64,000 nucleotides of DNA from Klebsiella sp. RIT-PI-d (lineage in GTDB: Bacteria; Pseudomonadota; Gammaproteobacteria; Enterobacterales; Enterobacteriaceae), in the NCBI RefSeq assembly GCF_001187865.1, contig NZ_LGIT01000009.1, positions 868,001-932,000 of the forward strand. Direction: 5' to 3'. The translations under genes were made by a program, and so were the position numbers. The notes below the pieces were generated by a model. That model made no database searches. It saw only the letters and a program-made list of their open reading frames with translations, and was not told the DNA's origin. How positions within the stretch are numbered: position 1 is the first letter of the stretch; each line of letters starts with the position of its first letter. Shown piece after piece: positions 1 through 15,273 of this stretch.

Positions 1-1168
1 CAATAGCTTTATCTATCAAAGAGACTAAATCTGCAGTTAGTTGCTGTTGCCATGTTGCACGAAGCAACTCTTTAATGCCAACTGCTTCGGCATTGGCTTC
101 AGTTAGTCGCACCCATTTTGCGAATGAGATAAATAAAGGTAGGTGAAGTCCCCATTTTTTAGCTACATCAGAAAATCGCTCCTGTTCGCCAAGAAGATCA
201 AGTGCCATGCATCTCAATACAGTACTTTTACCTGTTCCAGCTTGCCCAATTATGGCAATTCTATCCGACTCAGCCAGCCATTTTGCGATAGGGGTACGGC
301 GATACTGCTCGGTTTGAAGATTTTCTTCGGTCTTTAGTTGTGAAATTGTTTCTTTTGGCTGGTGCTCACGCCTTGGTGCGGCTAATTCACTCTCCTTTTT
401 TTGTACTATGTAGTTTATTGAACTTTCTTTCAATAGAACGTCTGGCACCGAAAAACGTTCTAGTAGTGAGATGGGAACGGAAGGTTGATCTGAAAATGGC
501 GATGGTGTATTTACAGGGATTTTATCAAGAAGCTCAAACCCGGCTTGATAAACCCGCTGCAACTGAGCTCTTACCTGATGGATTTCTCCCCCATCTAGCT
601 TTTGGAGATGATGTTTATCTATTGTATCGCCAAAAAAGTTTTTCGCACATTCGCGGCCAAAAAACTCCAGAACTATGTCAGGGTGTTCACGTAATAATGA
701 ACTTAAATCATGACCACCAAGTACTATTAAAGAAATTCCTTGGGCTCGAAAAAACTTAGCTTGTTCTTCTATCGCATCCTGCAAATTGACATCATCGACG
801 GCGCATTGTACTGCAATATAAAAGACATCTGTTTTACGTGACCATTCTCCATTTAGGAAGGTCGAACAGGCATCTTTTAAATTAGTGGAAGTATATTTGT
901 TGTAACACTTAGCTTGCCATGTATTATATCTACTGTTGCGTTTGCGAGCAAAAATATCTATACCTTGTTGGGCTTGACCAGTTCGACCATATAAACTATG
1001 GGATTCTACATCTGCATCCTTACCAGCTAGCCGATAACATAGTTTCTCAAAGTTTACCCAGCGCAATTCACCGAATGGTAGTACCTGTGAAACTGTCTGA
1101 ACTGGGATAAAATGTGGCACGTGGCTAGCTGGTGCTGTAATAGCATTTTCTTTCTTTTTTTGTTCCAT
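1..1168 (-). CDS. NACHT/STAND NTPase with N-terminal nuclease-like domain (partial, NLR-related defence protein)
   Basis: The gene runs off the left edge; 389 N-terminal codons are visible. Residues about 35-175 look like an Mrr/PD-(D/E)xK nuclease domain: E41 in 'NFEKL', D71 in 'GIDIF', and Q85/K87 in 'WQAKCY', the usual E...D...QxK order. After a linker rich in charged residues comes a P-loop, GQAGTGKST at 308-316, followed by a NACHT-like strand ('LPLFISFAKW', 343-352). This nuclease-NACHT order is that of bacterial NLR-related and Avs anti-phage proteins, where the NTPase module oligomerises on sensing phage and the nuclease is the effector; the sensor would be C-terminal, outside the window. 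The chosen ATG has GGAGGGG upstream; in-frame ATGs at 1207 and 1216 are alternatives. Base composition is clearly more AT-rich than the neighbours, suggesting transfer. The anti-phage role is inferred from architecture. Confidence 0.8.
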   Translation of the reverse strand, partial: MEQKKKENAITAPASHVPHFIPVQTVSQVLPFGELRWVNFEKLCYRLAGKDADVESHSLYGRTGQAQQGIDIFARKRNSRYNTWQAKCYNKYTSTNLKDACSTFLNGEWSRKTDVFYIAVQCAVDDVNLQDAIEEQAKFFRAQGISLIVLGGHDLSSLLREHPDIVLEFFGRECAKNFFGDTIDKHHLQKLDGGEIHQVRAQLQRVYQAGFELLDKIPVNTPSPFSDQPSVPISLLERFSVPDVLLKESSINYIVQKKESELAAPRREHQPKETISQLKTEENLQTEQYRRTPIAKWLAESDRIAIIGQAGTGKSTVLRCMALDLLGEQERFSDVAKKWGLHLPLFISFAKWVRLTEANAEAVGIKELLRATWQQQLTADLVSLIDKAI

Positions 1169-1466
1169 AAATTGGTGCCCCTCCAATTGAAATGGTTCAG
1201 CATTCATGCGATTCATATCAATGCTACCTTTTATGAGGCATAAAATACCGAATTACATTCTTTCAGTCGAAGATAATTTACCAACTAACACGTGATGATT
1301 TTGTGGCTTTAGTCATGTCCGCTCCTGGCACACAGCAGACCCTCTGATGCGCGGTAAAGTGAGCTATAAGCGAAGACAAACCCAGCTATGCGGCTGCAAA
1401 ATGCGAAGGAACTGGTCATCTGCGGTGATACACAAGAAACGGCATACTGTCAGTCTTGCGTATTGA
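1169..1466. other. Intergenic region between the NACHT gene and the aldolase gene
   Basis: About 300 bases without a convincing gene on either strand. It marks the change from AT-rich sequence (left) to ordinary enterobacterial composition (right). I see no tRNA or clear attachment repeat in it. It should contain the promoter of the NACHT gene, but I cannot place one. Confidence 0.5.
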
Positions 1467-2360
1467 TCACTTCAGCTTCAGTAGATTTATGACATGCGCA
1501 ACATCCGCAATATCACCTGCCGATAACGGTTGCAGGGGACGAGGCAGACAATCCGTATCGGTAAATCCGAGCACACCGGCGGCGGCAGCAATAACGCGAA
1601 GGCTTCCGCCATGTTTACGGAACAGCGACCATAATGGCTCAAGGCGGGTTGTCAGGGCAGTAACGCGTTGATGATCCTGTGCCGCTGCTGCCTCAGTGAT
1701 CTGTTTTGCTGTTTCCGGAAACAGACCACCGCACACCGAATACCAGACTTCACAGCCGGCATTTAATCCTCTTCCGGCATCAGCATCGCCACTAATCCCA
1801 ATTGTTACGCCGGGGCGCAGATGTTGACGCAACGCATTCACTCGTTCGATCGCTGCGGCCGGGTGCTTCGGAACACCGGGGATTTTAACTGAGCGAATCC
1901 CCTCAAGTGACGAGAGACGACCGTGCAGTTCATCCGTAAAGGTAAAATGCGTGGTGCCTGGATTATCATAGATGCACACCGGTACAGACACGTGGCGGGT
2001 AACGGTCTCGAAAAGTGAGAACACTTCTTCATCACGAAGTGACTGATAGCTTACCGCCGGAAGCAACAGGGCACTGGCGCCGGCAGCCTGTGCGTCATCA
2101 GCCAGATGAAGAATGGCATCGGTACTGACTGATCCAATACATACCATAACAGGGATATTCCCGGCATGTTGTGTTGCCAGAGTTGCGACGCGTCTGCGCT
2201 GTTCCCGGGTCAGATAGGCGTAGCTTCCGGTTGATCCCAGTATGCCCATAGAATTAACCCTGGCCGCGGTAAGGCGGGAAAGAATATGGCTAAACCCTTT
2301 TTCATCCACCTTGCTGGCGATGATCGGGGTTAGTGGAAACGCTGACAACCCGGTAAACAT
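1467..2360 (-). CDS. Dihydrodipicolinate synthase/N-acetylneuraminate lyase family aldolase
   Basis: A 297-residue class I aldolase-type TIM barrel, the usual family length. Recognisable landmarks are the pyruvate-carboxylate binding loop 'GSTGSYAYL' (about 42-50, GTTGE-like), 'YDNPGTT' (about 135-141, equivalent to the catalytic-Tyr motif of DapA), and a Lys in 'SVKIPG' (about 164) as the Schiff-base residue. Family members condense or cleave 2-oxo acids; the real substrate here is unknown. The housekeeping dapA sits elsewhere in these genomes, so this is a paralogue. It lies 21 bp downstream of the B3/B4-domain gene on the same strand and is probably cotranscribed with it. Confidence 0.85.
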   Translation of the reverse strand: MFTGLSAFPLTPIIASKVDEKGFSHILSRLTAARVNSMGILGSTGSYAYLTREQRRRVATLATQHAGNIPVMVCIGSVSTDAILHLADDAQAAGASALLLPAVSYQSLRDEEVFSLFETVTRHVSVPVCIYDNPGTTHFTFTDELHGRLSSLEGIRSVKIPGVPKHPAAAIERVNALRQHLRPGVTIGISGDADAGRGLNAGCEVWYSVCGGLFPETAKQITEAAAAQDHQRVTALTTRLEPLWSLFRKHGGSLRVIAAAAGVLGFTDTDCLPRPLQPLSAGDIADVAHVINLLKLK

Positions 2361-9660: not shown

Positions 9661-10413
9661 TTATTTTGGCCCGAACATCGCTTCCAGCTGTTTTTCGTCA
9701 GGCATACCGACAATCTGCTGAAGTTCCTGCTTGTCATTCATATAGTAAATTGCTGGGGTGGCCCCTGCGCCAGTTTCATCCATCAGTTGCTGGTGGTATT
9801 GCAGCTGACTAAAGGTCTTTTTAGACGTACTTGCAGGAGATTGCGGTATTTTTTGCCCGTTGGACAGCTCGTAGTCACTCCAGGCTTTGGCCGGGTCGGG
9901 CGCGTTAAGGATGGCGGACGCATATTGACCGCTCTTTGGATTAATAATGGCGACCAGTAACGTATTAACTTCTACTTTTCCGGATGCGATCCACGGCTGC
10001 GCGGCGGCCCGGAACTGTTTGCAGTAGGGGCAAAACGGGTCGGCGAACACCACCACTTTCCGTTTCGCCGTTGGACTGCCTTCCTTAATGCCCTGTGCAG
10101 CGCTGAGTTTTTCCCACAATTTGCGTCCTTCGGGAATATAGATCTGCTGCTGGAAAATGGCTTCGCTCAGGTTCTCGCCTTTCTCATTGTACAGATAGCC
10201 CGAAATAGCGTGTTGACCGTCCGGCGTCAGCCAGACAGTGACGCCCATATCCTGATAGCGTCCCAGCCAGCTGCGTAATCCGCCTTCAGTTTTAATCTCT
10301 TTGATAATAGTGATGCCTTGCTTCTCTATTTGCTGCACTGCCGGTGGCAGGGCATCTTTGGCCGAGGCCAGAAACGGGAGGGCGATAAGCAGAGCAAGAG
10401 AGGTGTAGCGCAT
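9661..10413 (-). CDS. dsbG: Periplasmic thiol:disulfide interchange protein DsbG
   Basis: A 250-residue protein with a signal peptide (1-16, 'LPFLASA'), an N-terminal dimerisation domain (about 17-80, 'IEKQGITIIKEI...LGRYQDMGVTVWLTPDGQHAISGY') and a thioredoxin-like domain with active site 'FADPFCPYCKQF' (about 122-133) and a cis-Pro loop 'ATPAIYYM'. The sequence follows E. coli DsbG closely and the CPYC motif is diagnostic. DsbG reduces sulphenylated or misoxidised cysteines in the periplasm and is kept reduced by DsbD. The ATG at 10413, with AGGA seven bases upstream, replaces an upstream in-frame ATG that would spoil the signal peptide. In E. coli dsbG lies beside ahpC; here it is in accessory surroundings. 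Confidence 0.88.
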   Translation of the reverse strand: MRYTSLALLIALPFLASAKDALPPAVQQIEKQGITIIKEIKTEGGLRSWLGRYQDMGVTVWLTPDGQHAISGYLYNEKGENLSEAIFQQQIYIPEGRKLWEKLSAAQGIKEGSPTAKRKVVVFADPFCPYCKQFRAAAQPWIASGKVEVNTLLVAIINPKSGQYASAILNAPDPAKAWSDYELSNGQKIPQSPASTSKKTFSQLQYHQQLMDETGAGATPAIYYMNDKQELQQIVGMPDEKQLEAMFGPK

Positions 10414-10615
10414 AACGATAATCCTTGTTGTTAGCGGCAGGGCAGCACGCGAAAGACGACCCATGCGTCCAGCTCGTGGTGCAGTTTCTGGACGGGTTCA
10501 CTTTCCCGGGTGAATTTAACATGAAGCAAAAAGTCTTATGCTTATCGCATCCGGGCCCACTGACTGGCTGGCTAACATGTGGCTGAGTGGAGCCGGAGTC
10601 ATTATTACAACGTAT

Positions 10616-11230
10616 TTATAGCTTAGGCGCGGTTTTTTTCTGTTGATTGCTATAACCGATGACCGCCTGTTGCCATGCGGGATCAATCAGCTCAATCTTG
10701 GTATTTCCCATTGATAGACTTGCCGTACCGCTCTCACATCCCATTCCTGAGCTAGGCATGGGTTTCTCACACCAGATCGGGAAGACCCCACCTGTGGATA
10801 CCGGCCCGTACTTTTGCAGGGCAGCTTTAACCATGTTGTCTTCATTTTCTTTGGTCCACGGTATTTCGTAGATGACGTGCGAAACAGCCACTGGATTAGC
10901 CTTGTCATACGGAACACGTGGTTCAAAACTTACCTGCATACGGGTACCCTTATCTTCGTACACAAGGAACGCAACCTGCTGGCTTCCGGTAATAACACTG
11001 GTCATCTGACTCTTCATCGACTCAGATGTTCTTATCTGGTCGGAAGAGATGCCAAAGTTTTTTTGCATTGCCGCGCGGGCTTCCTCAACGCTCATCCCTG
11101 TTTTAACCCCACCAACGTCAAATGATTTAACTTCTGCGGCACGAACCGGCGGAATGGCATTAGCGGATAAAGAGACCAATGAAGAAGACAGGACGACCAA
11201 AGGTAAAGTTTTAAATAGGTGGATTCTCAT
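10616..11230 (-). CDS. Exported protein of unknown function
   Basis: A 204-residue protein with a clear signal peptide (1-25, 'VSLSANA'). The mature part starts with a segment 'FDVGGVKTGMSVEEARAAMQKNFG' (about 38-61) that resembles the 'vkiGMtreeV' type start of BamE/SmpA-like folds, but the rest has no obvious match. Two cysteines (about 154, 165) could form a disulfide. It is separated from dsbG by about 200 bp with no terminator that I could see. Function unknown. Confidence 0.65.
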   Translation of the reverse strand: MRIHLFKTLPLVVLSSSLVSLSANAIPPVRAAEVKSFDVGGVKTGMSVEEARAAMQKNFGISSDQIRTSESMKSQMTSVITGSQQVAFLVYEDKGTRMQVSFEPRVPYDKANPVAVSHVIYEIPWTKENEDNMVKAALQKYGPVSTGGVFPIWCEKPMPSSGMGCESGTASLSMGNTKIELIDPAWQQAVIGYSNQQKKTAPKL

Positions 11231-13400: not shown

Positions 13401-13429
13401 GCGACGATCAATCGTCCGGCCGGTGTGAT

Positions 13430-13567
13430 CTATCTCACCACACACATCGGCCTGCCCGACACTGGCTCGGGGTGTATTTCTGCCTCCACGCTGAATACCT
13501 CTTTAAGCAGTTCAGGTGTCATTACCTCTTTCGGTGTGCCTTGCGCGCGTATATGCCCGTTCGCCAT
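13430..13567 (-). pseudogene. C-terminal remnant of an iron-siderophore ABC transporter ATPase
   Basis: The minus strand reads 45 codons 'MANGHIRAQGTPKEVMTPEL...EPVSGRPMCVVR' then TAG. This is the typical tail of FepC/FecE-type siderophore ABC ATPases ('...G.IvAqGtP.eVlT.elL..VF.v.a.i..dPvsG.Pmc'). The frame is cut at 13568 by the end of the IS30-family element, and no Walker A or signature motif is present beyond the element, so the rest of the gene and its transporter are gone. Confidence 0.75.
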
Positions 13568-13594
13568 TGTGAGTTCAATGGATCGATGCAACGC
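13568..13594 (+). repeat. Left terminal inverted repeat of the IS30-family element
   Basis: Pairs with 14421-14447 at about 22 of 27 positions. The outer eleven bases, TGTGAGTTCAA, are identical in both ends. Confidence 0.75.
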
Positions 13595-13619
13595 TATCCT
13601 TGATCAAGGGGGCGTTGCC

Positions 13620-14440
13620 ATGAAACGAAGAACTCGCATTTACTACACGCCAGAACAAAAGGCGATTATCTGGGACAGATACAAGCAAGGTGATTCCCTG
13701 CATGATATCGCCAGAATGTTCGACAGATTTCACTCTTCTATTATACCTACAATCCATCAGACTGGTGGATACCGTCCCCCTGTCCGAAAGCGGCACCGGT
13801 TAGCACTTTCGCTTGATGAAAGAAAGGAGATATCCAGAGGACTGGTAGCAAAAAGAAGCATCAGGGACATCGCTGACAAATTATCAAGAGCCCCCTCAAC
13901 GATTAGCCGCGAGATTAAGAGGCATGGAGGTGCAAAACAATACCGGGCAGCAAAAGCGGATACTGCTGCGTGGGAAAGTGCATTGAGACCAAAACCTTGT
14001 AAGCTAATTGAAAGCCCCACGTTGTGTAAAATCATTGCAGAAAAGATGCATCAGGACTGGTCGCCGGAACAAATCGCCGGTTGGCTTAAACGCTGTTATC
14101 CGGATAATCAGGAAATGCATGTGTCACATGAAACGATTTATAAAACGCTTTTTATACAAACCCGGGGAGCATTAAAAAAAGAACTGCAGCAATGCCTCAG
14201 AAGCGGAAGAGTCGTGCGTAGATCCAGAACATCATCGCTTAAAGGGAAAGGATTAGGGAAAATCCCGAATGCGATACCTGTCAGCAAAAGGCCACTGGAA
14301 GTCGCAGACAGAGCCATACCTGGTCACTGGGAAGGTGATCTGATAGTGTTGCCAGACAGCTCAATGAAAGGCCGAGAAAAACGCTATACTATGAATCACC
14401 CGCAGAGCGGTTTAATAAGTGTGTTGCATCCATCGGTTGA
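13620..14440 (+). pseudogene. IS30 family transposase, internal deletion with frameshift
   Basis: From the ATG at 13620 the protein has the IS30 N terminus: a helix-turn-helix region with 'IRDIADKLSRAPSTISREIKRHGG', then 'QDWSPEQIAGWLKR', 'HVSHETIYKTLF' and 'RAIPGHWEGDLIVL', which carries the first catalytic Asp. After 'GDLIVLPDSSMK' the frame enters unrelated codons. A shifted frame then gives the normal IS30 C terminus 'PRKTLYYESPAERFNKCVASIG' ending at TGA 14438-14440. The segment with the second Asp and the Glu of the DDE triad is missing, so the transposase is inactive. Confidence 0.85.
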
Positions 14441-14447
14441 ACTCACA
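14421..14447 (-). repeat. Right terminal inverted repeat of the IS30-family element
   Basis: Mirror of 13568-13594. The transposase stop codon at 14438-14440 lies within it, as is common in this family. Confidence 0.75.
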
Positions 14448-14520
14448 GCACAGAGCGGACGTGTCAGCTTGCTAAGGTCTGCTGTAAGCGAAAAGAGGAA
14501 ACTGACCATACTGCTCAACG

Positions 14521-15273
14521 TTACCCAATTAAGTTCCTGTCTCTTAGGCCTTCGCGGGTAGGGCCCTGAAAGTAGATGCTACTTATATGGCAGCCACGCG
14601 GTTGTGTCAGCACAAAACGAATTGTTTCCCAGACCGACCGTCCATTCATCAGGCGTTCCCCCATTCTGGATTGACTCTCGACATACGTATCTAACCCCGT
14701 TATTTCAAAATCAGGAGGATACAAACCGGTAACCCGTATATTTTCTTCAGATAGCTGCTGTGCCAGTTTAGTTGTAAATCCGCTCAGCCCATGTTTGCTG
14801 GCGAAAAAAGCTGGGTGAGCAACGGAATCGGTAAAATTCGGGATCCCACATGAAGATATAATTGAGATGATATCCGCATTGTCTGACCGCCTTATTCCAG
14901 GTAACAGGGCCTGGGTCAGTAGAATTGAACCTGTCAGACCTGAACTAATGGTATTGATAATCTCTCTGTCAGGCTGATCTTCTATTCTCCCTGATAACCA
15001 CTGAGCCGCATTGAGGATTAAGATGTCTATAGGCTTGTCTGAAAGTAACAGCTGTGAAGAAAACTGAGACAGAGATTCAGGCTGGGTCAAATCACAGATA
15101 TACCCTTTTGCAAGGCCGCTTTCATCACTAATAATGGCGCAGGTTTTTTGAATATCTTCAGCCCGACGTGCACAAAAATCTACCTCAATGCCCTCTCGAG
15201 CCAGCCACACGCACAGCGCCTGACCAAACCCCGTGCCACCACCGGTAATAACCGCTCTTTTACCTCTCAGCAT
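14521..15273 (-). CDS. SDR family oxidoreductase with Phe in place of the catalytic Tyr
   Basis: A 250-residue Rossmann protein of classical SDR length. The cofactor motif is 'TGGGTGFG' (11-18), the NAG-like motif 'LILNAAQW' (about 84-91) and the catalytic Ser lies in 'IISIISSCG' (about 138). The YxxxK motif reads 'HPAFFASKHG': the Lys is present but the Tyr four residues before it is Phe (codon TTT). Classical SDRs use that Tyr as general acid/base, so this protein may be inactive, altered in reaction, or a binding protein. The ATG at 15273 is preceded by AAGG; a longer upstream ATG adds an implausible extension. Its 3' end abuts the IS30 relic. The substrate is unknown. Confidence 0.8.
   Translation of the reverse strand: MLRGKRAVITGGGTGFGQALCVWLAREGIEVDFCARRAEDIQKTCAIISDESGLAKGYICDLTQPESLSQFSSQLLLSDKPIDILILNAAQWLSGRIEDQPDREIINTISSGLTGSILLTQALLPGIRRSDNADIISIISSCGIPNFTDSVAHPAFFASKHGLSGFTTKLAQQLSEENIRVTGLYPPDFEITGLDTYVESQSRMGERLMNGRSVWETIRFVLTQPRGCHISSIYFQGPTREGLRDRNLIG

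Follow-up and report, generated by a model that had tools for sequence, protein, structure and literature searches.

The sensors of Avs1–4 are of the tetratricopeptide repeat (TPR) type, and animal NLRs carry leucine-rich repeats (LRRs). The nucleases of Avs1–4 are reported to cut both phage and host DNA once terminase, portal or a different phage protein has been sensed (PMC12931631). In bNACHT25 and bNACHT32, which carry an NCH1 domain, defence is reported to depend on the nuclease, which degrades DNA once the cell is infected (PMC12169576). Here we describe a gene of Klebsiella sp. RIT-PI-d, on the minus strand and crossing the left edge of the analysed stretch of 64,000 nucleotides (the window; NZ_LGIT01000009.1, positions 868,001 to 932,000, or G000:C9:868001-932000), whose product combines three parts: a Mrr-type nuclease domain at the N terminus, a NACHT module, and a solenoid predicted to be helical. 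The protein is probably a bacterial NLR-type (bNACHT/Avs-like) receptor in which the solenoid would sense phage and DNA would then be cut, because of its domain order, the catalytic-type residues, the predicted NACHT fold, the faster divergence of the solenoid, a patchy spread that includes plasmids, and the defence genes found near relatives. A preliminary description of the window had proposed a nuclease–NACHT architecture and an NLR-like defence role; the architecture was right, and the kind of defence very likely so.

The open frame at the window edge is real. Its 389 visible residues, and the residues K314, D71 and K87 singled out in the preliminary description, were correctly numbered from the ATG at 1168, and correspond to K330, D87 and K103 of P0001, the 1,647-residue form used for numbering here (minus 16 for the earlier numbering). 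Leftward extension, a check named beforehand, showed that the frame continues from window 1168 (minus strand) to G000:C9:864273, giving 1,631 amino acids (aa) with a predicted helical arm of about 950 residues beyond the NACHT module; an ATG at 1216 would give 1,647 aa. In the extended sequence the gene occupies L002:12273-17216 (minus strand), with no internal stops. The start at 1168 is preferred because P0002, the closest homologue (97% identical, full-length), has 1,631 aa, and because the sequence GGAGGGG, probably its ribosome binding site, lies nine bases upstream. Conservation was read from an alignment of 65 sequences, the protein and 64 relatives (32–97% identical) chosen from the 120 listed of 299. 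The features of the visible part are as follows.

1..1168, minus strand: visible 5′ part of the gene, 389 codons, from the reading frame; start in agreement with P0002
1178..1184, minus strand: GGAGGGG, probable ribosome binding site, 9 nucleotides 5′ of ATG 1168, read from the sequence
647..1084, minus strand: Mrr/PD-(D/E)xK-type nuclease domain, P0001 residues 45-190
1046..1048, minus strand: E41 (P0001 E57), candidate active-site glutamate, E in 64/65 with one gap
956..958, minus strand: D71 (P0001 D87), candidate catalytic aspartate in GID, 65/65
908..916, minus strand: Q85-A-K87 (P0001 Q101, K103), candidate catalytic QxK, Q and K in 65/65
317..646, minus strand: linker, P0001 191-300, partly of low confidence in the model
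221..247, minus strand: Walker A loop GQAGTGKST with K314 (P0001 K330), K in 65/65
1..262, minus strand: visible start of the NACHT domain, Pfam match at P0001 319-485, module to about residue 690

The E...D...QxK nuclease-like domain of the preliminary description is borne out by these residues and by Mrr profile matches. Residues G85, I86, D87, Q101 and K103 are identical in all 65 aligned sequences; on this evidence the nuclease and P-loop motifs are not chance, and the E, D, QxK active-site pattern of PD-(D/E)xK/Mrr nucleases is present. A motif search recovered the nuclease pattern in 158 of 165 retrieved relatives, the other seven being either N-terminally cut (four) or carriers of R where the catalytic K is expected (three). 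The latter, P0142, P0143 and P0162, may be inactive effectors or may show a tolerated change. A restriction-endonuclease-like profile match, also anticipated, was found when 10 nuclease-domain sequences were searched: Mrr_cat_2 matches nine of them and Mrr_cat five (E <= 0.1), with the protein's own domain scoring 20.4 against Mrr_cat_2, below the cut-off of 22. Precomputed Pfam assignments for relatives include PF13156 for P0034 and PF04471 for P0124, P0131, P0144 and P0146. When solved structures were searched with the nuclease profile, no nuclease was matched.

The Walker A loop was correctly placed in a NACHT context: the Pfam NACHT match scores 36.8 bits against a cut-off of 26.7. Invariant positions in the alignment include G327, G329 and K330 of the P-loop, D415-E419 of Walker B, and H659, and the motif search found the Walker B pattern in 164, the Walker A pattern in 144 and a winged-helix pattern in 148 of the 165 relatives. 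Two features of bNACHT proteins thus appear in the sequence, namely a NACHT domain in which Walker A and Walker B are intact and an N-terminal effector domain, here Mrr-type by profile and motif. In the predicted model the NACHT module folds like those of NLRC4, NOD2 and NLRP3, and the nuclease and NACHT parts together align to the Avs4 structure 8dgf. This agreement with NLR receptors and with the Avs4 architecture argues against a different reading, an NTP (nucleoside triphosphate)-dependent type IV-like restriction factor in which the solenoid or nuclease would read modified or foreign DNA and the NACHT module would power or gate cutting. Since, in addition, no DNA-modification reader domain was listed for the protein (Pfam, E <= 1), we consider a restriction factor improbable.

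The likeness to Avs types 2 and 4 extends to the N-terminal Mrr-like nuclease, the STAND NTPase and the large single protein, and the comparison with Avs proposed in the preliminary description was in this respect well chosen. By whole-protein model, however, the protein is not an Avs. At E <= 0.1 the whole protein has five PADLOC matches. Avs2 falls on the nuclease, with 4.4e-5 for positions 16-108 of a model of 1,504; the other four, mad8 and three PtuA models, fall on the P-loop, and there is no whole-protein Avs4 match at this threshold. Among the 10 nuclease-domain sequences (E <= 0.01), one Avs2 model matches eight, a second Avs2 model four, LmuA two and Avs4 one, and three Aga or type IIG models match one or two. 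Unlike Avs, the C-terminal arm looks HEAT-like, and there is no evidence for terminase or portal as trigger. Matches to NCBIfam are weak and confined to the NACHT region, where EruA scores highest (NF058535; 19.1 bits, E 2.9e-4); with an equivalog cut-off of 1,000, identity with EruA fails on score. In its PD-(D/E)XK nuclease, NACHT module and putative C-terminal helical sensor the protein resembles bNACHT clade 6 (bNACHT25/bNACHT32), compared here by published description (PMC12169576). It differs in that no NCH1 was listed (Pfam, E <= 1; presence of that model in our Pfam copy unchecked). In contrast to the animal NLRs, the present protein has a predicted HEAT-like solenoid rather than LRRs, and its effector is a nuclease domain within the same chain.

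No full-length model in PADLOC or NCBIfam covers the whole protein, and no description of a nuclease–NACHT–HEAT architecture or of EruA was found in the literature, as judged on titles and abstract openings. The suggestion of a new subtype is therefore upheld as to the catalogues, but the protein may belong to one of the published bNACHT clades, of which clade 6 was compared by description: the kind is known, and the subfamily appears uncatalogued.

The most extensive part of the protein, some 950 residues C-terminal of the NACHT module, is predicted to form a HEAT-like α-solenoid. A relative with 70% identity gives a predicted α-solenoid of 980 residues (predicted local distance difference test, pLDDT, 91.3). 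HEAT-type matches were obtained for the arm, PF13646 is precomputed in several relatives, and no TPR model was listed in the Pfam scan of the protein. By sequence, no solved structure matched the full protein (E <= 0.1); the family profile matched mostly P-loops, plus designed or natural HEAT repeats. Avs chains are absent among the 50 structure matches listed for the solenoid, which says little. A search with the solenoid alone (at least 47 matches) found no member with another effector, although the search was shallow, with only the best word-sharing candidates scored; the four members it returned without a nuclease motif are N-terminally cut.

By analogy with bNACHT25/32 and Avs1–4, we propose that at rest the solenoid would keep the NACHT module closed with ADP. 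Binding of a phage protein, or of a host protein altered by infection, would permit exchange for ATP and oligomerisation of the NACHT module. The clustered nuclease domains would thereby be activated and would cut phage and host DNA, so that phage production is stopped and the cell sacrificed. A variant compatible with this receptor model is a guard, in which the solenoid would watch a host protein or chaperone and fire when infection disturbs it. Activation of bNACHT25 is reported to need host DnaJ (PMC12169576), and some stretches of the solenoid show good conservation among the relatives (mean 0.77 for P0001 1302-1313, for instance). Against this, in 64/64 comparisons the solenoid shows lower conservation than the nuclease and than the NACHT module (median divergence ratio 1.5), a pattern to be expected if it bound diverse phage proteins directly. 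Neither finding on conservation decides between guarding and direct binding, and we hold the guard variant to be possible but on balance unlikely.

The family comprises 299 homologues at E <= 0.001, the best 120 of which were listed. Named members among the matches listed occur in Yersinia, Aeromonas, Serratia, Salmonella, Pseudomonas and others, with further members in Myxococcus, Cylindrospermum and one ANME-1 archaeon. Length falls between 1,570 and 1,690 aa in 156/165 retrieved relatives, although the search is itself biased towards similar lengths. At E <= 1e-20, matches occur in eight plasmid records. A conjugative IncHI2A plasmid of Enterobacter hormaechei encodes a relative 70% identical over the whole protein; Deinococcus, Pantoea, four Streptomyces and one Lysinibacillus plasmid give 24-40% identity over 12-87% of the protein. 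Within the bacterial family, 3/392 whole genomes are positive at E <= 1e-30, our own included, the other two at 63% and 26%; among samples of 369 class and 398 phylum genomes (E <= 1e-60) only our own genome is positive. No relative was found in 50,697 phage records (E <= 1e-10), nor in 29 stretches of viral contigs that matched a pattern; 4,000 bases of the gene, used as query in a distant blastn search, gave no match in E. coli genomes. The Klebsiella copy is nearer those of Aeromonas (69-70%) and Rheinheimera (68%) than those of Dickeya and Edaphovirga (63%), which, with its low guanine plus cytosine (GC) content, suggests acquisition by horizontal transfer. We tentatively suggest, at somewhat less than even confidence, that these proteins form a separate, ancient and uniform bacterial and archaeal NLR clade ('Mrr-NACHT-HEAT', about 1,630 residues), with a HEAT rather than TPR solenoid, missing from defence catalogues and with a trigger unlike the terminase or portal of Avs.

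On the Deinococcus plasmid NZ_AP026563, the annotation shows a restriction endonuclease gene with a NACHT gene behind it; the pair was considered as a split two-gene effector and rejected. The first gene loses homology midway and the remaining homology lies in another frame, as read by eye (L013 about 10340-10780); because this looks like one frameshifted gene, through natural decay or sequencing error, the pair is not evidence for modularity.

Defence genes lie near several relatives. Nine loci were compared with nine control stretches of 20 kb, each 50-80 kb away on the record concerned. PADLOC was run at E <= 1e-20 on 120 open reading frames (ORFs) of 150 aa or longer that lie up to 10 kb to either side of the gene (178.8 kb) and on 141 ORFs from the controls (180 kb); this is a small sample, for which we claim no significance. 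Near the gene, 32 PADLOC families were matched, a number that is not a gene count because many models fit one protein (14 RmrA models, for example); the matches listed (25 of 32) include RdrA, RdrB, RmrA, PDC-S04, a phospholipase effector, ThsB and mad3. The controls yielded six families, QatD, mad3, SspA, DndA, a GlgB model and mad2, none of them RADAR, CBASS/TIR or RmrA and all presumably housekeeping paralogues. RADAR, CBASS/TIR or RmrA genes occur within 10 kb at 3/9 loci: RdrA and RdrB in Aeromonas, ThsB and (by annotation) a CBASS phospholipase on the Enterobacter plasmid, and RmrA at the G304 locus. This count leaves out PDC-S04, a second mad3 and seven unlisted families, among which HEC-04 and Toprim-type matches may be. 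The Dickeya locus has one mad3 and a helicase-like HEC-04 match, not counted as defence, and a tyrosine integrase; the Pseudomonas locus has a SIR2-domain gene below the threshold. Also below it, a Cas4-Cas1 fusion gene lies 1.4 kb from the relative in Candidatus Thiosymbion oneisti (L008; too short for a control), where the downstream frames look like a translated CRISPR array. On the E. hormaechei plasmid (NZ_CP156945; L012 4030-9351), four TIR-domain genes and a CBASS-type phospholipase lie upstream of the relative, and insertion sequences separate this cluster from it.

The immediate surroundings of the Klebsiella copy are of another kind. The preliminary description had placed it beside other accessory genes, which needs correction: the adjacent genes are metabolic or regulatory (DHDPS-family, B3/4, cupin–helix-turn-helix, RpiR-type and ASCH), with no obvious defence genes, and we take neighbours to include murQ/anmK-like genes. 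The ASCH-domain gene (PF04266; L002:11607-12026, plus strand) lies to the left and is convergent with the NACHT gene. A 9-bp inverted repeat about 30 bases beyond the stop codon (L002 12218-12241, read by eye) is a possible terminator; because of this repeat, the distance of a few hundred bases to both flanking genes and the opposite orientation of the left one, the gene may be transcribed as a unit of its own. Its GC content is 35-43%, against 46-56% in the 6 kb to the left and, on the right, 54% in the final 1-kb window; farther left (L002 1-5000) it drops to 43-50%. The claim of an AT-rich gene in a GC-rich genome is thus correct for the gene and not for the genome, where 2-kb windows range over 45-58%: the contrast holds for gene against flanks. 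Searches of the flanks in 40 genomes, our own included, gave only partial matches to either flank and so did not reveal an insertion at this site.

No defence gene was placed beside this copy in the PADLOC comparison of loci, and no promoter-like site was found upstream (window 1000-1600), as might be expected of a degenerate or silent accessory gene, or of a STAND regulator without a defence role. Yet the full-length frame without stops, the retained catalytic and P-loop residues and the existence of a full-length copy with 97% identity speak against degeneration, and so widespread a nuclease pattern among relatives is not expected of a regulator. We judge this alternative a shade less probable even than the restriction factor. 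Elsewhere in the window (13425-14561), an open frame with HTH_38 in two stretches is probably a broken insertion element; we take it to resemble an IS30-type transposase whose C terminus deviates from the usual sequence.

Animal inflammasome sensors have their bacterial relatives in the single-protein NLR-like receptors, whose activators are hard to find (PMC12169576). Because the present family is well bounded, its nuclease and switch are steadier than its arm, and one member lies on a conjugative plasmid near defence genes, it offers a good test case for HEAT-type sensing. Surveys that use catalogues with no model for the nuclease–NACHT–HEAT family would miss it.
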